Part shown: one piece after another, positions 159-61,487 of the stretch
Layout: each line of letters begins with the position of its first letter
Position numbering within the stretch: the first letter of the stretch is position 1
Made by a program: the position numbers and the translations under genes
Notes under the pieces: model-generated
Databases searched by the model: none
Seen by the model: the letters and a program-made list of their open reading frames with translations, nothing else
What the model was told of the DNA's origin: nothing
Source of the DNA: a virus
Length of the DNA stretch: 64,000 nucleotides
Direction: 5' to 3' (one strand)
Virus record (IMG/VR): IMGVR_UViG_3300028859_000011
Span: 1-64,000 of that record

Positions 159-800
159 ATGAAATATATAAAAACTTTTGAAGAAGGAATATCATCAGGA
201 AATGCATCAGGAAAAGCTGGAGTTGGATCAATTCCATTCGGAAGAGGTTATATGCAATCTGGCGGTAATAATGGAGCATCTGGTATTGTTTTTACAGCAG
301 TTGGTGAACCATCTTTTACTACATATAAAAGTATGAAGCATTCAAAAAAAGATTTAAAGGAAAAAAGAAGAAAACTTAAAATGTTTAAAAAATTCAAAGA
401 TAAAGATATAGTAACAGAAACAATAATACCAATTGACCAAATATCATGGAATTATGGAATTATAAATAATGATGAAAATATTGGAAAATATATAATTATG
501 AAAAAATTTGAAACTTATGCATTTAAATCAACTAATGGACACCGAAATGAATTAGATGAATTTATTCAAAATAATATAGCAAAAATAATATTATCAAGAA
601 AATCAGGAGTTGGAATTACTTATATGATAAAATATAAAAATATTCCGGAAAAATTAAAAGATTATTTTATTAATTGTGATTTTTTAAATGATGAAGAAAA
701 AAATTATATGTTAGTCATAAAAAGACATAATACTATTGAATTTATAGGAACAAAAGAAGAATGCGAAATTAAAATATCAGCAAAAAAATACAATTTATAA
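159..800 (+). CDS. tagged protein with capsid-targeting-like N-terminus
   Basis: This 213-residue protein has no recognised enzymatic domain. It begins MKYIKTFEEG and ends KKYNL, so it carries both terminal tags found repeatedly in this window. Residues 10-50 are rich in Gly and Ser with a GSIPFG element, followed by a strongly basic stretch (about 55-80, many Lys/Arg). The next gene repeats this order: tag, GSIP segment, then a Lys-rich segment starting MK-H/R-xKK. By analogy with T4 internal head proteins I infer a head-packaged or scaffold-core protein. The basic segment could bind DNA. It lies one base before the next gene and is probably co-transcribed with it. Confidence 0.8.
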   Translation: MKYIKTFEEGISSGNASGKAGVGSIPFGRGYMQSGGNNGASGIVFTAVGEPSFTTYKSMKHSKKDLKEKRRKLKMFKKFKDKDIVTETIIPIDQISWNYGIINNDENIGKYIIMKKFETYAFKSTNGHRNELDEFIQNNIAKIILSRKSGVGITYMIKYKNIPEKLKDYFINCDFLNDEEKNYMLVIKRHNTIEFIGTKEECEIKISAKKYNL

Positions 801-801
801 T

Positions 802-1185
802 ATGAAAAAATTTGAAGAATTTATAAAAGAAGATGCATTTTCAACTATGGGCAATACAGAAGGAATGGGTGCTGTCGTAGCTGCTCAACCTGGAAGTATT
901 CCTGGAACTCAAGGAACAACTGGCTCTGGTGATATTGGGCAACCTCTTGCAACATATTCTAAGCCAGTAGTAAATATGAAAAGACATAAGAAAAATAAAA
1001 AGAAATTAAGAAAAGTAGAATCTTTTGATATGTTTATGATGGAAGAAAATGATATAGATAATTTCACTGCAAGATATTATGATAACTATGACGATGAAGA
1101 AGAACCAAGTTATGAAGTAAATCTTCAAGATATTGATGAAAATAATATTAAAAAAATTCAAATGTATGAAAAAGATAATAAATAA
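802..1185 (+). CDS. tagged protein with T4-like capsid-targeting N-terminus
   Basis: This 127-residue protein starts MKKFEEFIKEDAF, the best match in the window to the T4 internal-protein targeting peptide (MKTYQEFIAEA). An I-K-E triplet at residues 8-10 fits the (I/L)-x-E cleavage rule of the T4 gp21 prohead protease. A low-complexity Gly/Thr/Pro region with GSIPG follows, then a Lys-rich block near 55-68, then a second F-D-M-F-M-x-E-E motif that looks like a repeat of the tag. The C-terminus is acidic. Its layout matches the preceding gene. I infer a head-packaged protein; a small core scaffold protein is the alternative. Confidence 0.8.
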   Translation: MKKFEEFIKEDAFSTMGNTEGMGAVVAAQPGSIPGTQGTTGSGDIGQPLATYSKPVVNMKRHKKNKKKLRKVESFDMFMMEENDIDNFTARYYDNYDDEEEPSYEVNLQDIDENNIKKIQMYEKDNK

Positions 1186-3853: not shown

Positions 3854-4300
3854 TTAAGATTCATTAATCAGATCTCTATATTTTGCAGCAGTTTCATAAT
3901 CTTCTACTTTAACGCAATCTAACATTTTATCAGTAAGAATTTCATGCTGTATTTCACGTATTTTAGGATTATCATATTTATAGTTTTCTATAAAATCTTG
4001 AAATATATCAAAATATTTTTTAGTTTCACTAATAACTTCATCTTTCTTAATATTAGCAACATTAAACATATCTAGCATATCAATATGTTCATTAACTTTT
4101 TCCATTTTAACATACACCTCATAAGCATCAATCATCAAATCATCTATATGAAAAACATCTGTATCTACTGAATCATTAGTCATAGATAGTGCTTTATCAA
4201 ATAATTTTTGATGTTTAAATTCTCTATGATCAAATATATAAAATGTTTGTATCCAAAAAATAAGAGTCATGATGTCTTTTACATTAATTTTTGTTTTCAT
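3854..4300 (-). CDS. small protein with C-terminal UVR motif
   Basis: A 148-residue helical protein. Residues about 118-146 (EILTDKMLDCVKVEDYETAA then KYRDLI) fit the UVR motif seen in UvrB, UvrC, McsA and ClpC, which mediates protein-protein contact through a helical hairpin. The N-terminal 115 residues are not recognised. The phage also encodes a ClpC-type unfoldase with a UVR-like middle domain (32607-35141), so a role as a ClpC adaptor is possible. A repair role with host UvrB is the alternative. Confidence 0.65.
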   Translation of the reverse strand: MKTKINVKDIMTLIFWIQTFYIFDHREFKHQKLFDKALSMTNDSVDTDVFHIDDLMIDAYEVYVKMEKVNEHIDMLDMFNVANIKKDEVISETKKYFDIFQDFIENYKYDNPKIREIQHEILTDKMLDCVKVEDYETAAKYRDLINES

Positions 4301-20786: not shown

Positions 20787-21095
20787 ATGAAATATTTAAA
20801 AGAATTTGAAAATGTTGTACCTGGTATAGATGATGAAAATGATTATTATTATGCTATACATATGGAAAAATCTATTGAAAAATTTAACTTAGCGTTAAAA
20901 AAAATTAATTTCTACGATGAATTTTATGAGTTTCTTGATGAAAAAGATATACCTATAAATAACGTAGTTTATATAATTTTTGAAAAAGATGATTTTTTTG
21001 TAGATGATAATATAGAGCCTTATATATCATATAAAAAATTAGCAGATGTTTATGTTTCTGATATCGAATGTGCTGCTGAAAAATTTAATTTATAA
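20787..21095 (+). CDS. doubly tagged small protein (cluster member 1)
   Basis: A 102-residue acidic protein with N-terminus MKYLKEFENV and C-terminus AEKFNL. The interior (many Asp, Glu, Tyr) is not recognised and differs from its neighbours, so only the ends are shared. It is first in a run of six tagged genes. An internal KFNL string also occurs near residue 30. I infer a head-packaged effector on the tag argument. Confidence 0.7.
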   Translation: MKYLKEFENVVPGIDDENDYYYAIHMEKSIEKFNLALKKINFYDEFYEFLDEKDIPINNVVYIIFEKDDFFVDDNIEPYISYKKLADVYVSDIECAAEKFNL

Positions 21096-21098
21096 TTT

Positions 21099-21428
21099 AT
21101 GAAATATTTAAGATTATTTGAAAATATAGCAGAAGAGCCGAATATAGATGAATTTTTAATTTTTGAGGTTAAAAATATTAATTCACCAATAAATTTAATT
21201 AAAATTACATCAATGCCAATTGATAGTAACGTACATCCAAATACTATTTTTATGGAAACAAGAGAATTAATGGGAGATTATGAAAGTGATATTTATTATA
21301 ATTATAAAGATAAATATTTTTTCTATGCAAGTGGAGTAAAATGTGATGTATTATTTAGAACATTTAATATCGATGAAGCATTTGATAGATTGAATTTAAT
21401 AAAAAATTCAAATAAATTTAACATATGA
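21099..21428 (+). CDS. doubly tagged small protein (cluster member 2)
   Basis: A 109-residue protein with N-terminus MKYLRLFENI, giving an L-F-E triplet that fits prohead-protease cleavage, and C-terminus SNKFNI. The interior is unknown. Its stop overlaps the start of the next gene within AACATATGAAATATTTAAAA, so the same bases encode part of the C-terminal tag and the next start. Confidence 0.7.
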   Translation: MKYLRLFENIAEEPNIDEFLIFEVKNINSPINLIKITSMPIDSNVHPNTIFMETRELMGDYESDIYYNYKDKYFFYASGVKCDVLFRTFNIDEAFDRLNLIKNSNKFNI

Positions 21429-21787
21429 AATATTTAAAAGAATTCGAAAATAGTAATTTAAAATATGAAGTAGGTGATTACGTATTAATTAAAAGTACGA
21501 TATATGGTAAAAGTACGTATGGTAATAAATTACATGCTAAATCAGAAGAATATGTACATACTCACATTGGTAAAATTGTACATATAATAACTGTAAATAC
21601 GTCTGCTTATTTAAATGATATGGGTAATCTTAAAATAGAATATGTAGATGTACCAAAAAAAATTCAATGTTTTTTTGAGAACGGAATATATCAAACGCGT
21701 GAATATGAAGATATAGAAAGATTTGCGACTCCAGAAGAAATTAAAGAATATGAATTCAAAGTATTAGTAAATAAATTTAACATATGA
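21425..21787 (+). CDS. doubly tagged SH3-like protein (cluster member 3)
   Basis: A 120-residue protein: MKYLKEFEN, then YEVGDYVLIKSTIYGKS, then NKFNI at the end. The V-G-D-Y-V opening followed by alternating strands and I-G-K-I-V suggests a small SH3-like barrel (KOW or CarD type). The next three genes share this interior, so they are paralogues. It overlaps both neighbours by 4 bases. Confidence 0.7.
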   Translation: MKYLKEFENSNLKYEVGDYVLIKSTIYGKSTYGNKLHAKSEEYVHTHIGKIVHIITVNTSAYLNDMGNLKIEYVDVPKKIQCFFENGIYQTREYEDIERFATPEEIKEYEFKVLVNKFNI

Positions 21788-22125
21788 AATATTTAAAAAA
21801 ATTTGAAAATATAAATCATTATAACGTAGGTGATTACGTATTAGTTAATTATGTTACTAAATCTACAACATTATCTAAGTTGGCTAATTTTGTAAATTCA
21901 TCGATAGGAAAAATAATGTTTATTGATGATAAAAGTTTAATTGTTCAATATAATAATATTCCAGATAAAATAAAACATTTTTTTAGTGATAAAACAGTTG
22001 GTAATAATAATATAAAAAATTCTGTATTTTTTTGGGATAAAATTAATGCTATAAAAAGATTAGCAACTGAAGAAGAGATTGAAAAATATAAATTAGATAC
22101 TATTGCAAGTAAATTTAACATATGA
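21784..22125 (+). CDS. doubly tagged SH3-like protein (cluster member 4)
   Basis: A 113-residue paralogue of the previous gene: MKYLKKFEN, then YNVGDYVLVNY, then IGKIMFIDDKSLIVQYNNIP, then SKFNI. The interior is most like the following gene (both have a L-x-x-F/L-V-N/D-x-x-I-G segment and a Y-N/D-N-I/V-P strand). Confidence 0.7.
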   Translation: MKYLKKFENINHYNVGDYVLVNYVTKSTTLSKLANFVNSSIGKIMFIDDKSLIVQYNNIPDKIKHFFSDKTVGNNNIKNSVFFWDKINAIKRLATEEEIEKYKLDTIASKFNI

Positions 22126-22439
22126 AACATATAAAAACATTTGAAAACTCTAAAAACACGCCTGAAGTTGGAGATTATATTTTAGCTAATTATGATTCTA
22201 TTTTTGATTCATTAAAAGATTTAGTAGATTTTATGAATAATACAATAGGAGTAGTTGCTAATATAACATCTTTTAATCCATATGTTAAATATGATAATGT
22301 TCCTATTAATTTAAAAAAATATTTCAATAGAAATGGCAGTAAAGGTATAGTGGATGTATCACTTGATCATATTCTTTATTTTTCAAAATCAAAAGAAGAA
22401 ATAGAAATGAAATTAAATAAAAATAAATTTAACATATGA
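22122..22439 (+). CDS. doubly tagged SH3-like protein (cluster member 5)
   Basis: A 105-residue paralogue: MKHIKTFEN, then PEVGDYILANYDS, then TIGVVANITSFNPYVKYDNV and KNKFNI at the end. It overlaps neighbours by 4 bases. Confidence 0.7.
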   Translation: MKHIKTFENSKNTPEVGDYILANYDSIFDSLKDLVDFMNNTIGVVANITSFNPYVKYDNVPINLKKYFNRNGSKGIVDVSLDHILYFSKSKEEIEMKLNKNKFNI

Positions 22440-22780
22440 AGTACTTAAAATTATACGAAACAAAATTAATACCTAAATATAAAGTAGGTGATTATATTCA
22501 TTTAGATATGGAACCAGATTTTAGTTATGATGATTGTTTAGGTAAGATAGTTAAAATAGATAAAAATGGATTTTTAGTAGAACCTGATGAAAAAGAAAGA
22601 GATAATACTAATTTAGCGTTTTATATTAATCATTTTAATCCGTTTCCATACTCAGTAAAATTTTACAATAAAGGATATAATATAGAAGAACGTTTAATAG
22701 ATAGATATCTAAATAAAGAAGAAATAGAATATTTTAAATATTTATTAAAAAATAAAGACTTTAGAAAATTTAATATATGA
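22436..22780 (+). CDS. doubly tagged SH3-like protein (cluster member 6)
   Basis: A 114-residue paralogue: MKYLKLYETK (an L-Y-E triplet that fits prohead-protease cleavage), then YKVGDYIHLDME, then LGKIVKIDKNGFLVEP and RKFNI at the end. It is the last tandem member on the plus strand. Confidence 0.7.
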   Translation: MKYLKLYETKLIPKYKVGDYIHLDMEPDFSYDDCLGKIVKIDKNGFLVEPDEKERDNTNLAFYINHFNPFPYSVKFYNKGYNIEERLIDRYLNKEEIEYFKYLLKNKDFRKFNI

Positions 22781-23550: not shown

Positions 23551-23883
23551 TTATATATTAAATTTATTTGTTGATAATAATAACTTTAAATCATCAAATG
23601 TCATTATTGACCAATTATCTTTATTTCTCCATTCAGGGTTATTATATTTATCAAGTATTTCATCTAATCTACTATCTGCTTGCTCAATTGTAAAAAAGAA
23701 CGAAATATTATTAAGATTATTAATATCAAAATCATTAATATCAACTGACATCAAATGATCAGTATTGTTATATGAAATATTCATTAATATTGAATAATCT
23801 CCTTCAATTGGTTTATGTAAAACTAAGAAATATTTTTGTTTTTCTTCTTTCTTTTTAAATATATTAAATCTTTCTACTATCAT
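23551..23883 (-). CDS. tagged small protein (minus-strand cluster)
   Basis: A 110-residue protein starting MIVERFNIFKKKEE and ending STNKFNI. The C-terminal tag is exact; the N-terminal one is the MITxFKIFE variant in weaker form. The interior is unrecognised. Confidence 0.65.
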   Translation of the reverse strand: MIVERFNIFKKKEEKQKYFLVLHKPIEGDYSILMNISYNNTDHLMSVDINDFDINNLNNISFFFTIEQADSRLDEILDKYNNPEWRNKDNWSIMTFDDLKLLLSTNKFNI

Positions 23884-23885
23884 AA

Positions 23886-24317
23886 TTATAAATTAAATTT
23901 TTCTGCTGCTGTTATTAATGGTGGTTTATTATTTTCTATATTTAAAAATAAATACATTGCATATTGTATTGGTCCAGTATCTTGATATATTTTATGTTTT
24001 TTAATAAATTTTACTACTGTATCATATAATGATAAATCATCTTCTATTTTTTTCCATGCAGAAGCTAATGCATATTTTTTTATTTCTCTTTGCGTTTTTT
24101 TATTAATTCTATTATCATCAGTTTTCCATAAAAAAGGATATTGGTACATAAAAAATAGCATACTAAATTCATCTATAAAAGAATCTGGTACTTTAATCTC
24201 CTTAGATATTTCAATGCATAAATCATGACGTATTTTATTGTATGGTTGATTATAATCATATAAAAATTTATCAGTAACAGAATTAATTTTTTCAAATATT
24301 TTAAAATTAGTTATCAT
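23886..24317 (-). CDS. doubly tagged small protein (minus-strand cluster)
   Basis: A 143-residue protein with N-terminus MITNFKIFEK (I-F-E triplet) and C-terminus AAEKFNL. The interior is helical with Tyr and Trp; no domain recognised. It overlaps the preceding gene by 4 bases at an ATATGA junction of the same type as the plus-strand cluster. Confidence 0.7.
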   Translation of the reverse strand: MITNFKIFEKINSVTDKFLYDYNQPYNKIRHDLCIEISKEIKVPDSFIDEFSMLFFMYQYPFLWKTDDNRINKKTQREIKKYALASAWKKIEDDLSLYDTVVKFIKKHKIYQDTGPIQYAMYLFLNIENNKPPLITAAEKFNL

Positions 24318-24754
24318 ATGTTAAATTTGTTTGCTTCTCTTCTTAAATTTAGTTCTTTAATAATATCTTTTTGTTTTTCAGAAATATCACCATAAATAGT
24401 AAATGAAGAATTTCCATCAATTCTATATTCTATTTCAATATTGTTTTTTAATATTAGTGATAATACCACAAATTGATCTCTTTTATGCTGTAATGTACCC
24501 GTATATCCAATAGTACATTCATAAACTTGATCAATCACTCCTTTTATATAATCTTTATCAATTGGTAAAAATTTAGATTTACTATTATCATAACCATACC
24601 TAATATTGAATTTAACTAACGTATAAGGTTTTAATAAATTCATAATAAATTTTCTAATTTTAGTAAGACTATTATTATAATAAATCATTAAATCATTTAA
24701 TACTAATGTTGTTTCATCATCAACACTTTCAAATATTTTAAATTCTGTTATCAT
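24314..24754 (-). CDS. doubly tagged small protein (minus-strand cluster)
   Basis: A 146-residue protein with N-terminus MITEFKIFESVDDE (I-F-E triplet) and C-terminus EANKFNI. The interior is unrecognised. A TTATATATAACTG element sits just upstream on the minus strand, so this is probably the first gene of a late minus-strand unit ending at 23062. Confidence 0.7.
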   Translation of the reverse strand: MITEFKIFESVDDETTLVLNDLMIYYNNSLTKIRKFIMNLLKPYTLVKFNIRYGYDNSKSKFLPIDKDYIKGVIDQVYECTIGYTGTLQHKRDQFVVLSLILKNNIEIEYRIDGNSSFTIYGDISEKQKDIIKELNLRREANKFNI

Positions 24755-26772: not shown

Positions 26773-29700
26773 ATGATCGTAGCGCACTTAGGTGATAACC
26801 ACATTTTTAACGAAGAAGATAGACATCAAGAATATAGAGAAGTCTTTAGTAAAATTTACAAAGAATTAAAAAAAATAAAACCAGATAGAATTGCTCTATG
26901 TGGCGATCTGTTTGAAAGCAAATTAACGATCAGTAATGAATGTGATATATTAGCTGGAGAATTTTTAAATAATTTAGCTAATATTGCACCAGTTAAAATA
27001 GTTGTTGGAAATCATGATCTTAACGTTAAAAACCTTTCCAGAGTTGATAGTGTAGATACAATAGTTAAACTTATTAATAATCCAAATATTGAATATTTTA
27101 ATAAAAGTGGAATTTATAAAGATGGTGAAATATCATGGGTTGTTTATAATCATCCAGAAAAAAATGTAGATCCTTGGTTAAATCAAATTAAAGATGATAA
27201 TCAAATTTATATTGGACTTTATCATGATCCTATACAAAATTGTACAAATGATGAAGGTAGAGTTTTTAATGATAAAAAATTAAAATATATTAATTATTTT
27301 AAAAATAATGATTATCTTCTGCTTGCAGATATTCACAAACGTCAATTTTTCAGAAAAAATAAATCTGCTGCATATTGTGGATCAACTTTGCAAAAAAATT
27401 TCGGTGAAACAATAGAAAACCATGGTTTTTTAGTCTGGAATATTGAATCTGCAACTGAATTTACTGTAGATGAATATGACATACCAAATGATCACGCATT
27501 TATAAATTTTTATATAGATGAACCACTTGATTATGATACTCTTAATTTAGATACTCCTATCTTTAAAGATATGGAAATTAAAATTCAATGGAAAGATTAT
27601 AGTTCAAAAATGACTACAGTCAATGAAAAAAAGATAAGAGATTATATTAAGGATAAATTTAATATCACAAAAATCAAATTTGAAAAAATTTACTTATATA
27701 ATGATGTTATTTCATCTAAAATGTTAAGTGAAACTTTAGATTTAAGTGATTTACAAGTTCAAACTAATATTTTTAAAGAATATTTGGAAGAACAAAAATA
27801 TAAATCTGAAGATATTAAAGAAATATTAAAAATCGATGATATTATTAATAGTCGTTTACAATTAAGTGATACTATTAAAAATATTGTATGGAGTGTTGAT
27901 AAATTTTGGTTTAGTAATTTTAAATCATATGGTGAAGATAATGTTATAGATTGGAAAGATACAGACGGAATATATCAAATTTCGGGATTAAATAAATTCG
28001 GTAAAACTAGTATTCTTGATGCGCTAACATATATTCTTTATGGTAAAACTACTACTACAGTATCATCAATGAAATTTGGAGATAGTCGTTATATTAATAA
28101 CAAAAAATTCTTAGATTATTGTTTAGGAGGAGCGGTTATTGATGTTAATGGTAAAAAATTTGTAATTCAACGTAGAACAGAAAGGATATGGAATAAAGCC
28201 CATACAGCTTTAACAAGTTGTCCAACATCATTAGATTTTTATTCATCAGAAGAAATAACAGAAGAAAATAAATTAACAGGTGAAGTTAAAGATAAAACTC
28301 AAAAAATTTTAGATTCTATTTTATCTGAATTTTTGGACTTTATTAGAATGTCATATACAAACGCAGATAATCTTAATAATATATTATCTGAAACCAGAGC
28401 AATATTTATAGATAATGTTATACGGGATGCTGGTATGGATATTTTTGAAACTAAATTGAATGAATTTAAGGAATATAAGAAAGAATTGACTGATGAAAAA
28501 TTGGTAGTAGATATTCAAAAATCAGAATCTGATGTAGCAGTTTTAAGAAATGAAATCATTGATATAAATACTGAAATTGATGAGAATAAAGTTGAAATAT
28601 CTAAATTAGAATTAGAATTAGATAAGAAGAATATTGATAGAGATGATTTAAATAAAAAATTAAATAATATTGATGCTTCAATGCTTACATTTGATGAAGA
28701 TTTATATTTAAATTCTATTGAGAATTATGAAAATAAGATTAATGAATCAAAAGATAAAAATAAAATTTTAGAAATAGAGATTGAAAAATTACCTATTGAT
28801 TTTGATTCAACTAAACTTAATGATTATAAGAATGAGTTGAAGCAAACAAATATTAAAATTTCAGAAAAAAAGGATGAAATTTCAAAATTAAAAAATTCTT
28901 TAACAGAATCTGACAATAAGATTGATAAAGTAAATGTTAAGATTGATGAATTAAAGCAATCTGAGATAAGAAAAATTTCGGCAAAAATAAGTGATAATGA
29001 TTTACAAATTGAAATAATCAAAAATAAAAAATCAAATATTATAAATGATGAAATAAAAAAGTTAACATCAGAAATTCAAGTTTTTGAGTTAAAGGTTAGA
29101 GAAATAGATTCTGACATAAAAATTTTACAAAAAGATGGAGGTAATGCTAAAAAGGCTAATCAAGAATTGGATATAGAAATAGAAACATTTAAAAATTCTA
29201 AATCTTGTCCAAGTTGTGGTAGAGATTATGATAAAGCTGATCCAAAATATTCAGAACACTTAGCTCATTTGGAAGATAAGATTAAGAGTCTTGAAAGTAA
29301 AAAAGAGCCTAATATTTTAATAATGAATGAATTATTATTAAAGTATAAAGACTTAAAAAATGAATCTATTGATTGTAATATAAGTATTAATAACTTGAAT
29401 GATATGAAAAAGCTATTAATTCAAGGAGAATACAATAAAAATATTTTAACTAAATTACAAGAAGTTGGTAGTAGTAAAAAATTAAAGCAAGATAATATTG
29501 AATTAAATGCTTTAATAAAGGAAATAGAAAATAATAATTTTGATAATTCTGAAATATTAAATGAAAATATTGAAAAAGGTAAAAAATTAATAATTAATAT
29601 TGAGCAAGGTAAAGAAGATACATTATTAGTAATAAAAGATATTGAATCTGAGTTGAAAAATTTTAATATTGATGAAATAGAAAATAATATATCAATTGAA

Positions 29701-30504
29701 GAAATTACGAGAGAAAAATTTGAATTAAGAAAGCAAAAAATATCAAGTAAAGATAATATTAAATTAACAATTGAAAATTTTAATTTTAAAATAAAAGAAT
29801 TGAAATCTGATATTGAAAAATATCAAGCATATAAAATAAAAATTGAAGAAAATAAATTAATTCAATGTTCTATTGATGATATTGATAAAAAAATTAAGAA
29901 TTATAATGATAATATAAAAATTTTATATCAAGAAAATATTAATTTTGAAAAGAAAATACTCATTAAAGAAACTGAAATAGTTTCAATTTTAAATAAAATT
30001 AAAAAATACTTAGCTCAGAAGAAAAAGGAAGAATTATTAAAAGAATATTCAAAATGTATTGGTCGTGATGGAATTCCAAGTTTTCTTTTAAAAAAATCTA
30101 TACATTTAATAAATAGAGAATTATCAGAATTATTATCTAATGTAGATTTCACTTTATTTTTTGATGAAGAATTAGAATTGAAATTGAGTATGGATGATAG
30201 AATGGATGTAAATCAGCCTGCAATAACCAGCAGTGGTGCTGAAAGAACATTTTCTGCTCTTGCTTTAAAGATGGCATTAAGACAAATAAATGTTAAGTCA
30301 AAATCATCAATAATTTTTCTTGATGAAATTACTGGTAAATTGATAGGTGATTCTATTCAGCAGTTTATGGATTTTCTTGATGTATTAAAAACAAAAGTTG
30401 AAAAAATTGTTATTATTGAGCATGTTCATCAAATAAATTTTGATGCTTTAATTGAAGTTAAAAAAGATGAAAACTTAATTTCACATTTGGAATTACAAAA
30501 ATAA
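26773..30504 (+). CDS. fused SbcD-SbcC (Mre11-Rad50, gp47-gp46-like) nuclease-ATPase
   Basis: A 1243-residue single protein joining both subunits. The N-terminal metallophosphatase (1 to about 225) has all motifs: LGDNH (7-10), CGDLFE, VGNHDLN, YHDP and LADIH. From about 375 the Rad50/SbcC half begins, with Walker A GLNKFGKTS near 405-413. Then come a long coiled coil, a zinc hook CPSCGRDY (about 811-818), a second coiled coil, the signature SSGAERTFS (about 1155), and Walker B IIFLDEI (about 1178). In T4, gp46 and gp47 are separate and act in recombination-dependent replication and host DNA breakdown. Fusion fixes them 1:1 in one chain. Confidence 0.93.
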   Translation: MIVAHLGDNHIFNEEDRHQEYREVFSKIYKELKKIKPDRIALCGDLFESKLTISNECDILAGEFLNNLANIAPVKIVVGNHDLNVKNLSRVDSVDTIVKLINNPNIEYFNKSGIYKDGEISWVVYNHPEKNVDPWLNQIKDDNQIYIGLYHDPIQNCTNDEGRVFNDKKLKYINYFKNNDYLLLADIHKRQFFRKNKSAAYCGSTLQKNFGETIENHGFLVWNIESATEFTVDEYDIPNDHAFINFYIDEPLDYDTLNLDTPIFKDMEIKIQWKDYSSKMTTVNEKKIRDYIKDKFNITKIKFEKIYLYNDVISSKMLSETLDLSDLQVQTNIFKEYLEEQKYKSEDIKEILKIDDIINSRLQLSDTIKNIVWSVDKFWFSNFKSYGEDNVIDWKDTDGIYQISGLNKFGKTSILDALTYILYGKTTTTVSSMKFGDSRYINNKKFLDYCLGGAVIDVNGKKFVIQRRTERIWNKAHTALTSCPTSLDFYSSEEITEENKLTGEVKDKTQKILDSILSEFLDFIRMSYTNADNLNNILSETRAIFIDNVIRDAGMDIFETKLNEFKEYKKELTDEKLVVDIQKSESDVAVLRNEIIDINTEIDENKVEISKLELELDKKNIDRDDLNKKLNNIDASMLTFDEDLYLNSIENYENKINESKDKNKILEIEIEKLPIDFDSTKLNDYKNELKQTNIKISEKKDEISKLKNSLTESDNKIDKVNVKIDELKQSEIRKISAKISDNDLQIEIIKNKKSNIINDEIKKLTSEIQVFELKVREIDSDIKILQKDGGNAKKANQELDIEIETFKNSKSCPSCGRDYDKADPKYSEHLAHLEDKIKSLESKKEPNILIMNELLLKYKDLKNESIDCNISINNLNDMKKLLIQGEYNKNILTKLQEVGSSKKLKQDNIELNALIKEIENNNFDNSEILNENIEKGKKLIINIEQGKEDTLLVIKDIESELKNFNIDEIENNISIEEITREKFELRKQKISSKDNIKLTIENFNFKIKELKSDIEKYQAYKIKIEENKLIQCSIDDIDKKIKNYNDNIKILYQENINFEKKILIKETEIVSILNKIKKYLAQKKKEELLKEYSKCIGRDGIPSFLLKKSIHLINRELSELLSNVDFTLFFDEELELKLSMDDRMDVNQPAITSSGAERTFSALALKMALRQINVKSKSSIIFLDEITGKLIGDSIQQFMDFLDVLKTKVEKIVIIEHVHQINFDALIEVKKDENLISHLELQK

Positions 30505-31796: not shown

Positions 31797-31917
31797 ATAA
31801 ATAGTAATATATAAAATAATTTAATTAATATATAGTCATATAAAATATTACCTACCTATATATTATTCTTATATTCAATAATTTAAAAATATTATTGAAA
31901 TAATATCATAAAAAGCT

Positions 31918-31947
31918 TTGTGATTAGAAAAAAATGTTGTACTTTTG
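31918..31947 (+). promoter_or_regulatory. host-type promoter TTG-N19-TACTTTTG upstream of clpS
   Basis: TTG at 31918-31920, 19-base spacer, TACTTTTG at 31940-31947, about 65 bases before the clpS start. An excellent Bacteroidota promoter match that would drive clpS, the membrane protein gene and clpC together. The 215-base gap holding it has no other gene. Confidence 0.75.
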
Positions 31948-32011
31948 TATTATCAATTACAACAATCAATTAAACTTTATAATAAAATTGATATATTAAT
32001 ATAAATAATTT

Positions 32012-32305
32012 ATGGAAAAGACAAAAACAAAGACATTAGAAGAAATTTTAGAAGAAAATGATATATCTACAAATACTGAAGAAGAAAGTAAATTAATTTT
32101 ATGGAATGATGATGTTAATTCTTTTGAATGGGTAGAAAGTTGTTTAATGCTTTATTTAAAATTTACATTTGAAAAAGCTCAAGCATCAGCATACAATGTA
32201 CATCTTAAAGGAAAAGATATTATTAAGACAGGATCGAAAGATGAGTTGGAGCCATATAAAAAATTATTAGAAGAACGAGGATTAAGCCTTACAATAGAAA
32301 AATAA
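32012..32305 (+). CDS. clpS: ClpS-type N-degron adaptor
   Basis: A 97-residue protein. After an acidic 22-residue extension it reads LILWNDDVNSFEWVESCLML, matching the ClpS core (VILxNDDVNTFxxV), where the N-D-D residues bind the alpha-amino group of N-degron substrates. Later elements AQASAYNVHLKGKDIIKTGS and the ending ERGLSLTIEK match the ClpS pattern (A-x-x-I-x-x-x-V-H-x-x-G, then G-L-x-x-x-I-E). ClpS hands substrates with bulky N-terminal residues to ClpA/ClpC. The neighbouring ClpC-type ATPase makes this a matched pair. Confidence 0.92.
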   Translation: MEKTKTKTLEEILEENDISTNTEEESKLILWNDDVNSFEWVESCLMLYLKFTFEKAQASAYNVHLKGKDIIKTGSKDELEPYKKLLEERGLSLTIEK

Positions 32306-32328
32306 TAGAAAAAATAATAGAAAGTGAT

Positions 32329-32598
32329 ATGAAAAAATTAGCAATAAATTATATTTTATATATTTATAAAAATTTCATATATAATAATAAGGATAATGAT
32401 ATTTATAAAAAATGGGCAACTTCATTTATGATTATATTAGAATATACATATGATTTATATATTTGGATATTATCAATTATATTTTTACCTTTTTTATTAA
32501 TTTTAATGATAAATGATAAAAAAATAAAATCTAAAAAATTTCAATTAATGAAAATGTTTATTAACTATACTAAAAATAACAACAATAATAAAAATTAA
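32329..32598 (+). CDS. small single-span membrane protein
   Basis: An 89-residue protein with one clear membrane helix (YIWILSIIFLPFLLILMI near 44-61) flanked by Lys-rich and Tyr/Asn-rich ends. It lies between clpS and clpC, so it may help recruit or localise that system, or merely be carried along. Confidence 0.6.
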   Translation: MKKLAINYILYIYKNFIYNNKDNDIYKKWATSFMIILEYTYDLYIWILSIIFLPFLLILMINDKKIKSKKFQLMKMFINYTKNNNNNKN

Positions 32599-32606
32599 AA
32601 AAGCCT

Positions 32607-35141
32607 ATGAATTACTCAAAAGAAGTAGAAGAAGTTATCAAATTAAGCAAGGAAATTGCTATTAATATTCGTTCTAAGTCTATTAAACCTGAACATTTAT
32701 TTTTGGCAATGATTGATGACGATCATTCTGAAACATCTGAAATATTGAGGGATTTAAATCTCAATATTGGCGCAATTAAGCAAACAATTCGTGAGTTGTC
32801 TACATCTGAACAACCTGGAATAAATACACTTAGAAAGAATGCATCAATTCCAATTGACTCATCAACTGAAAAAATTCTTACAGATTCTGCTATTTTAGCT
32901 AAAAAAATGGGAACAGATGAAGTTAGTGTAGAACATGTTTTATGTGCTATATTAGAAAATAAAAATAATTTAGTATCAGAATTATTTAGTAAATCTCCTG
33001 ATATTTTAAGGAGTCTAATGATGATTTTGAAAAATGAGGATCATCTTGATGAATACAATAATGAAATTAATGAACGAGATATAGAAGATTATCAAGATGA
33101 GTCTAACATTAAAGATGATACTAAAAATAAATCAAAAACTAAATTGATTGATCAGTTTGGTACTAATCTTACCAATCTTGCAAAAGAAGGTAAATTAGAT
33201 CCAGTAGTTGGACGTGCAGATGAAATTAAAAGAATTTCGCAGATATTATCCAGACGTAAGAAAAATAATCCTGTATTAGTAGGTGAACCAGGTGTAGGTA
33301 AATCTGCGATTGTTGAAGGATTAGCTCAATTAATTGTAGATGGACTTGTTCCTGAAAATTTACAAAATAAAAAGGTTATAACTCTTGATATGGGGTCTTT
33401 GGTAGCAGGAACTAAATATCGTGGTGAATTTGAACAAAGATTAAGAGGTATTGTCAAAGAAATGGAAGAAAATACTGATATTATTTTATTCATTGATGAA
33501 ATTCATACTATTATTGGAGCAGGTTCTGCAGCAGGATCACTTGATGCTTCTAATATGTTGAAACCAGGATTAGCCAGAGGAACATTTAGATGTATTGGCG
33601 CTACTACTCTTGAAGAATATAGAAAGTATATTGAAAAAGATGCAGCATTAGAACGTAGATTTCAAAAAGTTGTAATTGATGCAACTAGTAAATCTGAAAC
33701 ATTAGAAATTCTTAAGAATATCAAAAAACAATATGAAAATCATCATAAAGTTACATATACTGATGATGCATTAGAAGCATGTGTTAATTTATCTGATAAA
33801 TATATATCAGATAAATTCTTTCCAGACAAAGCAATTGATGTTCTTGATGAAGCTGGAGCTATGGTTCATGTTAATGGAACAAGTGCAATTCCAGATAAAA
33901 TTGTAGAACTCAGTAAAAAAATAAAAATTTCTATTTCTGAAAAACTTGAAAGTATTGCAGCACAGAAATTTGAGAAAGCTGCTGTTCATAGAGACAATGA
34001 AAAACAATGGAAATCTGAACTTGAATCAGAAAGAGAAATATGGAGTCAGGAACATACTGATCATAGAGATGTAGTAACTCAAAAAGAAATAGCTGAAGTT
34101 GTTGCCCTAATGACAAAAATACCTGTAGATAATGTATCCGTTGATGAAAATAACAAGTTAAAATTTATGGCGGATAAAGTAAAAACTGTTGTTATTGGAC
34201 AAGATGATGCTGTTGATAAAATAGTTCAATCAGTTAAAAGGGCAAGAGTTGGTATTACTAATCATAGTAAGCCTGTTGGGTCTTTTGTTTTCTCTGGACC
34301 TACTGGAGTAGGTAAAACATATCTTGCAAAAATTATGGCAAAGGAGTTATTTGGATCAGAAGATGCAATGATTAGAATTGATATGAGTGAATTTATGGAA
34401 AAATTCTCTGTATCTAGATTAGTAGGAGCACCTCCAGGCTATGTTGGATATGAAGAAGGTGGTAAATTAACAGAAGCAGTAAGACGTAAACCATATTCTA
34501 TTATTCTTCTTGATGAAATGGAAAAAGCTCATCCAGATGTTCAAAATATACTTCTTCAAGTATTAGATGATGGTGTATTAACTGATAGTAATGGTCGTAA
34601 AGTAGATTTTAAAAATACTATTATAGTTATGACAACAAATGCAGGTTCAAGAAAATTGAAAGATTTTGGTGCTGGAATTGGATTTGGACTTAATAAAAAC
34701 AGTCAGCAATCTAAAAATGATGTTCTTAAAAAAGAATTAGAAAAAGTATTTAGTCCTGAATTTTTAAATCGTATTGATGAAATTATAAATTTCAATTCTT
34801 TAAGTAAAGAAAATATTTGTGGCATTATTGATGTTGAATGTAAATCTTTGATATCTAATCTTAAAGAAAAAGGATATGATATAATTATATCTCAATCACT
34901 TAAAGATTACTTATTTGAAAATGGTTATGATGAAAATTATGGAGCAAGGCCATTAAAACGAGCAATTCAAAGTAATATCGAAGATAAACTCGCTGATGCT
35001 ATTATTGATCAAGAAATCTCAGTTGGTGATAAAATATCATTAATATATGATAAAGAAAGTTCATCTGTTAAAATTTCAAAATTGTCAACTAAAGAGATTA
35101 AGGCTAGTAATATCTTAACAGAAAATACTACAGTTTCTTAA
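32607..35141 (+). CDS. clpC: ClpC/ClpA-type AAA+ unfoldase
   Basis: An 844-residue Hsp100 protein. It has an N-domain double repeat (1-150), first AAA with Walker A GEPGVGKS (about 227) and Walker B ILFIDEIH, then a short UVR-like middle segment ([19 protein letters not shown] near 445-463). The second AAA has Walker A GPTGVGKT (about 570) and Walker [20 protein letters not shown] near 690 contains an I-G-F loop of the kind that docks on ClpP. This loop and the short middle domain mark it as a ClpC/ClpA partner of a protease, not the disaggregase ClpB. No clpP is in the window, so a host ClpP may be used. Confidence 0.93.
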
Positions 35142-35446
35142 TGATTAAATGGAAAGATTTAAATCTCACTGATAAAATATTCTATGTTATCTTAAATAAA
35201 GATAACATAGATGTTTTACTTAATAATGAGATGAAAATAGAAGAGATTAAAATAATTAGTATTATTAATGATAATAAAAATATATTATTTAATACTGATA
35301 TATTTGGAAACATTGAAATGACATATGATGAATATAATGAAGAAAGTTATGTCACCTCATATTTAAATGATTCTCTTATAATATTTTCAGTCGATCATAA
35401 TGGAATTATAACTGAATTGAAAAAATTATTAAATGATTTAAATTAA
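35141..35446 (+). CDS. unknown small protein coupled to clpC
   Basis: A 101-residue Ile/Asn/Asp-rich protein whose ATG shares one base with the clpC stop (TAATGA). A 13-base-arm hairpin lies within its first 25 codons. No domain recognised. Confidence 0.6.
   Translation: MIKWKDLNLTDKIFYVILNKDNIDVLLNNEMKIEEIKIISIINDNKNILFNTDIFGNIEMTYDEYNEESYVTSYLNDSLIIFSVDHNGIITELKKLLNDLN
35181..35211. repeat. perfect intragenic inverted repeat
   Basis: Arms TCTATGTTATCTT / AAGATAACATAGA, 5-base loop, no following T-run on the plus strand. It lies inside the gene just after clpC. Confidence 0.8.
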
Positions 35447-35550: not shown

Positions 35551-36657
35551 ATGCCAGAGCAACAATATAAAATACATTTTCAAAGAAAATTTAAAACATA
35601 TGAAAAACATAATGACTTTTATAATAAATTATTAGACTTAGATATACAACATTTATTTGAGGTTTTACACAAATTAAGATTACCAAATGGTTTTTATAAA
35701 GCATCAGTTTCTACTGATTATAGGTACAGTTGGTTAAGAGATAATTTCTTTTGTTCATTTCCAGAATTATGGAACGATACAGAAAAATATATTCAAACAT
35801 ATCAAACATGGTTAGATTATTATAAAAATATAGAAACAAAATATGGAAAATTTTCATCTTTAATTAAAAAGAAAAAAATAGATTTTGATTGGGAATTTCC
35901 TAATCCAAGAATAAATACAGATTTGACAGAAATTCATTCTGGATGGAATCATATTCAAATTGATCAAATAGGATATTTTTTATATGGAATATCAACTGGT
36001 GAAAATAATGGATTGAATATAATTCGTGATAAATCTGATATTGATATTATATCAACAGTAATTAATTTACTAGATGCTATTAATTATCACACAGTACCTG
36101 AATCTGGAGCTTGGGAAGAGGGTAAAGAAGCTCCAAGGGCATCTACAATTGGTGTAATAGTGGCTGGCTTAAAATCAATTAAAATGTGTAATAACATTAA
36201 TATAGAAATTCCTGTTCATCTGATCGAAAATGGTATTAAAACTTTAAATAGTATTTTACCAAATGAAACCCCCACCAGAAAATATGATTTAGCACAATTA
36301 TTTCTTATTTATCCATTTAATTTATTAACTATTGAAATGTCTAAAACAATATTAAAAAATATTGAAGATAATTTATTAGATGATAATGGAGTCTATAGAT
36401 ATCTAGATGATAAATATTATAATCACAATGGAGAAGCAACTTGGTTATTTGGATTAAGTTATTTAGGATTAATATATTGTCAATTAGGAGATAAAGAAAA
36501 AGCAAAATATTTTTATGAAAAAATAGTTGATGAATCCATAGATTATGAAATACCTGAATTGTATTATCACGGTACAAAAACTCCAAATGATAATAATCCA
36601 TTAAGTTGGAGCATAGCAATGACTATTGAATTAGCACATATGCTTAAAACTAATTAG
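35551..36657 (+). CDS. GH15-like glucoamylase/glucodextranase family protein
   Basis: A 368-residue alpha/alpha-barrel-type protein. SVSTDYRYSWLRDNFF (about 49-64) matches the family's substrate-pocket motif (Y-x-Y-x-W-x-R-D), and PESGAWEEGKEAPRAS (about 184-199) matches the W-E-E general-acid motif. NPLSWSIAMTIELA near the end resembles the L-x-W-S segment. The related kinase-alpha subunits share the fold, but the Glu is kept here. It is shorter than fungal glucoamylases. I infer cleavage of a host or environmental alpha-glucan, or of capsule. The late-type promoter suggests expression with virion genes, but no secretion signal is seen. Confidence 0.8.
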   Translation: MPEQQYKIHFQRKFKTYEKHNDFYNKLLDLDIQHLFEVLHKLRLPNGFYKASVSTDYRYSWLRDNFFCSFPELWNDTEKYIQTYQTWLDYYKNIETKYGKFSSLIKKKKIDFDWEFPNPRINTDLTEIHSGWNHIQIDQIGYFLYGISTGENNGLNIIRDKSDIDIISTVINLLDAINYHTVPESGAWEEGKEAPRASTIGVIVAGLKSIKMCNNINIEIPVHLIENGIKTLNSILPNETPTRKYDLAQLFLIYPFNLLTIEMSKTILKNIEDNLLDDNGVYRYLDDKYYNHNGEATWLFGLSYLGLIYCQLGDKEKAKYFYEKIVDESIDYEIPELYYHGTKTPNDNNPLSWSIAMTIELAHMLKTN

Positions 36658-61172: not shown

Positions 61173-61487
61173 ATGAAAATATATAGTTTTGATGAATATT
61201 ATCACATGAAATTACAAGCAGATATTTATTATACTAATATGATGAAAGTTTTTTATGATTATATAACTACTAATGATGAGTTTATAAAAAAACATGGTCC
61301 TATTTCTATAACAAGAGTTGAAGATATATCAAAAAATAATTTTAGATCAGGAGGATATATTATAAATTATAGAGCTAAAGATTATTCCGTTAGAAAAATT
61401 AATATAACTGATGAAGAATATAATGATATGATTAAATATATGAAAGATCCAGAATTATATGACTCAGTAAAAAAATTTAATTTATAA
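61173..61487 (+). CDS. tagged small protein (KFNL end)
   Basis: A 104-residue protein starting MKIYSFDEYYHMK (loosely tag-like) and ending VKKFNL. The interior is unrecognised. It shares one base with the next gene. Confidence 0.6.
   Translation: MKIYSFDEYYHMKLQADIYYTNMMKVFYDYITTNDEFIKKHGPISITRVEDISKNNFRSGGYIINYRAKDYSVRKINITDEEYNDMIKYMKDPELYDSVKKFNL

Follow-up and report, generated by a model that had tools for sequence, protein, structure and literature searches.

A ClpS-membrane protein-ClpC gene cluster and an altered ClpP in the record of a large phage probably infecting Bacteroidota

Introduction

The bacterial ClpS-ClpA/ClpC-ClpP N-degron pathway has the same protein families, binding pocket and motifs as the locus described here, which differs from it in being viral, in including an extra membrane protein and a 101-aa protein (o101), and in the altered docking pocket of its ClpP. 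Among phages, the Agrobacterium phage Atu_ph07, reported in 2018, encodes ClpS (gp708), ClpA (gp292), ClpP (gp676), ClpX (gp2) and ClpB (gp492), for which its authors suggested functions in virion assembly, replication control and aggregate clearance (PMC6102473). Like the virus studied here, it is a jumbo phage with an adaptor, a double-ring unfoldase and ClpP, but its clpS and clpP lie ~22 kb apart and its clpA, as numbered, lies far from both, whereas clpS and clpC are clustered here. Its host is alphaproteobacterial, its unfoldase is annotated as ClpA rather than ClpC, and its ClpS was found with an E. coli ClpS query and not with the ClpS of the present virus.

Three huge phages of 634–642 kb (LR745206, LR756504 and LR756502) resemble the present virus in that all encode ClpS and at least two, LR745206 and LR756502, carry ClpC, and each has two or three ClpP-family genes. 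Their Clp genes are unlinked and their ClpC is devoid of Clp_N, whereas the genes are clustered and Clp_N is kept here; the Clp genes of huge phages are unmentioned in the main text of Al-Shayeb 2020 (PMC7162821). A survey of 224 jumbo phages recorded ClpS, ClpP and ClpA genes, with phages carrying ClpP or, instead, ClpS, and proposed that phage ClpS directs targets to host ClpAP, but noted no ClpS-ClpC unit (PMC7824862). Moraphages, large phages that likewise infect Bacteroidota and encode a ClpA/ClpC-type ATPase, have a ClpA-type gene in their core and chaperones discussed as host-takeover tools; unlike here, ClpS and ClpP go unmentioned in the parts of that study consulted (PMC12619734).

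An earlier note on this DNA, made from the sequence alone, knew of no described phage ClpS-ClpC pair. The ClpS, ClpA, ClpP and ClpX listed for Atu_ph07 and the ClpS already known from jumbo phages correct that view, and together with the ClpS, ClpC and ClpP of public huge-phage genomes they precede the set reported here, which is not a first. Neither a ClpS-ClpC unit nor the altered ClpP clade turned up in a literature search that covered few subscription journals. New here are the clpS-membrane protein-clpC cluster, the altered ClpP clade, and o101 beside clpC or clpP.

Results

A conserved Clp cluster in a tailed-phage record

The analysed window spans positions 1–64,000 of a 125,546-bp IMG/VR virus record (IMGVR_UViG_3300028859_000011, here G000) with a G+C content of 22%. 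A syntenic 235-kb relative (G004) matches 181 of the 216 ORFs and encodes a tailed-phage set of tail sheath, tail tube, baseplate, RNR, DnaB, UvsX and a sigma factor, and a T4-like large phage is the best explanation of the source; both records are incomplete. Four genes lie in tandem on the plus strand at 32012–35446 (clpS, TM89, clpC and o101), separated by gaps of 23 bp and 8 bp and then by a one-base overlap of clpC and o101 (Table 1). The clpS-membrane protein-clpC order is kept in relatives L007–L012 and is retained at ClpC identity as low as 62%. Purifying selection is indicated by dN/dS values of 0.16 for ClpS and ClpC and 0.16–0.17 across ClpS, ClpC and ClpP. The persistence of gene order to this level of divergence, together with the low dN/dS, argues that the cluster is not a chance arrangement. 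Pfam, fold matching and alignment confirmed the coordinates and the ClpS and ClpC identities given in the earlier note, whose proposal that clpS and clpC share one transcription unit, with a membrane protein between them, is also borne out; the pair retains the N-degron pocket and the IGF loop.

Table 1 Features of the Clp locus and associated genes. Positions are those of the window unless stated otherwise.
Feature	Position	Strand	Description	Evidence or remark
Promoter	31917..31947	+	TTTG-N19-TAnnTTTG, Bacteroidota-type	Pattern match, 65 bp upstream of clpS
ClpS	32012..32305	+	97 aa, NDDVNSF...VH pocket motif	PF02617, residue alignment, fold model
TM89	32329..32598	+	Small hydrophobic membrane protein, 89 aa	Conservation, hydropathy
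ClpC	32607..35141	+	ClpC-type Hsp100, 844 aa	Pfam, alignment to B. subtilis ClpC, tree
o101	35141..35446	+	101 aa	Overlaps clpC stop codon
UVR-motif protein	3854..4300	-	148 aa, candidate ClpC partner	PF02151, 32.3 bits
ClpP	67608-68357 of the record (G000)			Profile match; 3.6 kb past window end

Several other genes of the record were observed. A 1243-aa ORF (26773–30504), kept in L007–L012, joins an Mre11-like phosphoesterase to a Rad50-like AAA_23 domain (an SbcD-SbcC fusion). Directly after the Clp cluster, a glycoside hydrolase family 15 (glucoamylase-like) gene (35551–36657) is strongly conserved, with 90% identity in relatives and a dN/dS of 0.08. By eye, a lipoprotein-like protein, apparently of the prohibitin/SPFH type, is encoded at record positions 72413–73680, with a small membrane protein after it.

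ClpS retains its substrate pocket

The phage ClpS matches PF02617 at 53.9 bits (cut-off 23) in profile searches and has an N-terminal extension of ~22 residues. An AlphaFold model built from 12 phage sequences matches 36 PDB chains of solved ClpS at E ≤ 1e-3, with best rmsd values of 0.6–1.2 Å, a Foldseek E of 1e-5 and a TMt of 0.9. In E. coli ClpS, N34, D35 and H66 bind the alpha-amino group. Loss of the pocket residues, which the earlier note had named as grounds for abandoning its reading, was not seen on alignment: N34, D35, D36 and H66 are kept, as are V65 and L99 (E. coli ClpS numbering). The differences T38N, M40F and M62A relative to the E. coli protein are lineage traits and not decay, since N38, F40 and A62 also occur in most of the 30 Bacteroidota ClpS sequences most similar to the phage protein. 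The phage ClpS would be expected to bind bulky hydrophobic (L/F/W/Y) N-termini and to deliver them to an unfoldase. The Aat transferase makes secondary N-degrons, and primary N-degrons need no Aat; the virus record holds no PF03588 match for this enzyme, which could come from the host or from a part of the genome that the record does not cover.

ClpS matches were found in 242 of 296 Bacteroidota genomes, the best being 48% identical to the phage protein. The ClpS tree groups the phage sequence with one set of Bacteroidota ClpS at weak support (88/62) and places it apart from the ClpS of LR745206, LR756502 and G017.

ClpC has a complete class I architecture

Pfam searches identified Clp_N twice, AAA, AAA_lid_9, AAA_2 and ClpB_D2-small in the phage ClpC, which thus has the full class I Hsp100 architecture of Clp_N repeats, D1, a UVR-like M-domain, D2, an IGF loop and D2-small. 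Among solved structures its best match is B. subtilis ClpC, which aligns over residues 3–814, with the Walker A/B motifs and the short UVR-like M-domain in register and AGIGF at the position of the B. subtilis VGF loop. An (I/L/V)GF ClpP-docking loop separates ClpC and ClpA from ClpB, and an IGF loop is present in the ClpC of all four phages of the clade.

These four ClpCs form one group (100/100) inside a group of Bacteroidota and other phage ClpCs (100/99) whose internal branch order is unresolved. A single origin of phage ClpC was considered after a quick tree united most of the sequences; it was dropped, as the bootstrapped tree recovered one clade in 6% only and left the backbone open, so that one acquisition and several cannot be told apart. 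The ClpCs of LR745206, LR756502, G017 and G007 start ~10–50 residues before the first ATPase domain and have no Clp_N, and in these four genomes clpS is unlinked to clpC. ClpS binds the Clp_N domain in known systems, and the retention of Clp_N in the present clade, with clpS adjoining, fits what may be a working ClpS-ClpC pair.

A host-type promoter and a probable Bacteroidota host

A -33/-7 consensus is characteristic of Bacteroidota primary sigma factors, and the earlier note had placed a strong promoter of host type before clpS. The pattern itself occurs at the chance rate over the window (5 seen against 4.95 expected), so these counts lend no support; a matching element lies at the equivalent place upstream of clpS in L007 (7904) and L011 (7889), with diverged spacers, and is absent from that place in L012. 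We accept the host-type promoter on the basis of its conserved position in the two relatives. Since G004 encodes its own sigma factor, a host-type promoter upstream of clpS is compatible with early expression. The promoter type, the grouping of the phage ClpC with Bacteroidota ClpC and the ClpS residues N38 and F40 all point to a Bacteroidota origin, and the host is probably a member of this phylum.

Two small proteins accompany the Clp genes

TM89 has a KD19 hydropathy maximum of 2.8, with only 16 of the 216 ORFs exceeding 1.6. Four phages have it conserved at this place between clpS and clpC, at 36–67% identity and with a dN/dS of 0.37, and profile searches returned no family match. The o101 gene also follows clpC in L007–L010, and G006 encodes a homologue (E ~1e-9) directly upstream of clpP; an IMG/VR scan found relatives only in these records. 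Its structure was modelled at a pLDDT of 86, and no fold match was found in PDB or BFVD at E ≤ 1e-3. By association in these two gene arrangements, o101 is a candidate Clp-associated partner.

An altered ClpP is encoded in the same record

The earlier note had assumed that ClpS and ClpC work through a host ClpP. A search of the rest of the record found clpP (E 9e-54, 178 bits), ~32 kb from clpC, which the host-only assumption overlooked. The protein has a Bacteroidota-style N-terminus, an intact S97/H122/D171 triad and R170, and its docking pocket is hydrophobic at L48, V90, L92, L114 and I189; Y62 is replaced by Gln and position 112 is Ser. This altered pocket leaves docking on a host ClpP as an option, and the missing Y62 makes docking of the IGF loop on the phage ClpP doubtful. 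Among the sequences aligned, Y62 is lost (Gln or His) in the ClpP of G000, the G001–G004 group, LR745206, G343 and G022, and is kept in Bacteroidota ClpPs, E. coli ClpP and the other full-length phage ClpPs.

The Y62-less proteins, except that of G022, have in common a C-terminal tail motif, GF(D/N)(D/E)YY, and four of them form one phage-only clade (100/100) in the ClpP tree. The G343 protein, which joined the comparison after that tree, is 53% identical to the G000 protein, as is one LR745206 ClpP. In LR745206 and G343 the altered form is accompanied by a Y62-bearing ClpP of canonical type, a pairing that suggests mixed rings, as in Chlamydia. The ClpP of G006 is canonical, with Y62, and 38% identical to that of G000, and no second full ClpP was found in the incomplete records of G000 and G004. 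ClpC may dock on the phage ClpP, on a mixed ring or on host ClpP. LR756504 (L203), LR756502 (L202) and Lak-C1 (L201) encode an additional ClpP-family protein that is shorter and lacks the usual N-terminus; the profile match in L201 and in L203 runs across one stop codon (TAA, TGA), perhaps reflecting recoding or poor alignment.

Distribution of Clp genes among viruses

A scan with the ClpS alignment recovered 97 viral stretches coding for relatives, and among the best 80 of these the clpS-membrane protein-clpC cluster is confined to the present clade. ClpS, ClpC and ClpP occur together in G000–G004, G006, G017, G343, LR745206 and LR756502. Every longer close relative (G001–G004, 64–235 kb) and the more distant G006 encode ClpP, and the two ClpS-bearing records that lack it are a 41-kb and a 28-kb fragment. 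Across records that are mostly fragments, a ClpP-family match accompanies ClpS in 3 of 13 cases, ClpS accompanies ClpC in 1 of 32, and most viral contigs having either ClpS or ClpC have it alone. One arrangement of clpS adjoining clpA, in 'Acinetobacter phage MD-2021a', was set aside as apparent bacterial contamination.

UVR-motif and tagged proteins

The UVR-motif protein that the earlier note offered as a further adaptor is real and conserved, with a 71% identical homologue at the matching place in G004; the tie to ClpC consists of the UVR motif alone. By eye, a second UVR-motif protein is encoded at record positions 118068–118412 and is followed by a serine resolvase-like ORF and a TnpB-like ORF (record 118613–120386) that resemble an IS607-type element. 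More than 20 small proteins share at their N-termini a motif of the type MKYLKxFE or MKKYxQFINE, similar to the capsid-targeting sequences of T4, and a C-terminal KFN(L/I/M) tag occurs in 19 ORFs, many of which also carry the N-terminal motif (window 159–1185, 20787–22780, 23551–24754 and 61173–61487; record 77670–95145). These proteins are possibly packaged and injected. The suggestion that prohead-type processing exposes N-degrons found no support: in the clearest cases N, S, T or K follows the conserved ...FE, and a few alternative LxE sites would expose Phe.

Discussion

We consider it fairly probable that this phage encodes its own Clp protease, in which ClpS guides degradation, ClpC drives it and a ClpP chamber with a phage-encoded subunit carries it out. 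ClpS would recognise bulky hydrophobic N-termini and hand substrates to the co-transcribed ClpC, which would unfold them and thread them into a chamber formed by the phage ClpP alone or by a mixed ring with a canonical ClpP that either the host or an unsequenced stretch of the genome provides. The purpose would be to remodel the infected-cell proteome, either by removing host proteins or by clearing processed or aggregated phage proteins. The set is real and conserved and probably functional: the sequences show the genes, the kept gene order, intact pocket, ATPase and catalytic residues, and purifying selection, and from these we infer the assembly of its three components, its N-degron substrates and its remodelling purpose. 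Counting against this reading are the missing Y62 of the phage ClpP, the ~32 kb between clpP and clpC, the lack of an Aat match in the record, and the many viral contigs, most of them fragments, with ClpS or ClpC alone.

Readings differ in the chamber that ClpC engages. A mixed ring, in which only the canonical face docks ClpC, is rather unlikely on present data; one of the two Chlamydia ClpPs is the docking subunit (PMC6773864), the paired altered and canonical proteins of LR745206 and G343 would provide such partners, and the conserved C-terminal tail fits a specialised subunit, but a second full ClpP was not found in G000 or G004, both incomplete. Docking of phage ClpS and ClpC on host ClpP, with the phage ClpP doing something else or replacing host rings later, also seems unlikely: the canonical IGF loop, the Y62 that host-type ClpPs keep where the phage has Gln, and the frequency of ClpS alone in phages, which fits the use of host machinery proposed earlier (PMC7824862), are all in its favour, while the presence of ClpP under purifying selection in all longer relatives and the canonical Y62-bearing protein of G006 count against it. 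An insulated N-degron protease, with a membrane-linked ClpS-ClpC, a phage ClpP rewired through the change of Y62 to Q/H and its tail, help from o101 and a bypassed host chamber, is an improbable extension.

Other readings concern function rather than docking. The Clp genes may serve proteostasis or virion assembly and not host attack, an appreciable possibility, if somewhat short of an even chance, that is compatible with the ClpS-ClpC-ClpP mechanism and agrees with the functions suggested for Atu_ph07 (PMC6102473) and, as far as the consulted parts of that study go, with the core ClpA-type gene and the chaperones discussed as host-takeover tools in moraphages (PMC12619734). ClpS beside ClpC points instead to substrate-selective degradation, and the host-type promoter, in a lineage where G004 has its own sigma factor, suggests early over late use, although neither is decisive. 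It is very improbable that ClpS acts as an inhibitor or diverter saturating the N-domains of host ClpC/ClpA while ClpC is a stand-alone chaperone. E. coli ClpS does divert ClpA from other substrates and many phages have ClpS alone, but an inhibitor would not need the conserved pocket, and ClpC keeps its IGF loop. Bacterial contamination or misassembly can be all but dismissed, since although the Clp genes derive from bacteria, they recur in the same order in contigs from several metagenomes and lie in a record that shares most of its ORFs with G004 and its tailed-phage genes.

If the parts of the proposed phage Clp protease work together, the virus would select which proteins vanish from the infected cell, and the set is small enough to be rebuilt in the test tube. 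The altered ClpP clade is a natural experiment in protease recognition by AAA+ motors. Clp-directed degradation is worth seeking elsewhere among giant phages, which have Clp genes in databases that have scarcely been discussed.
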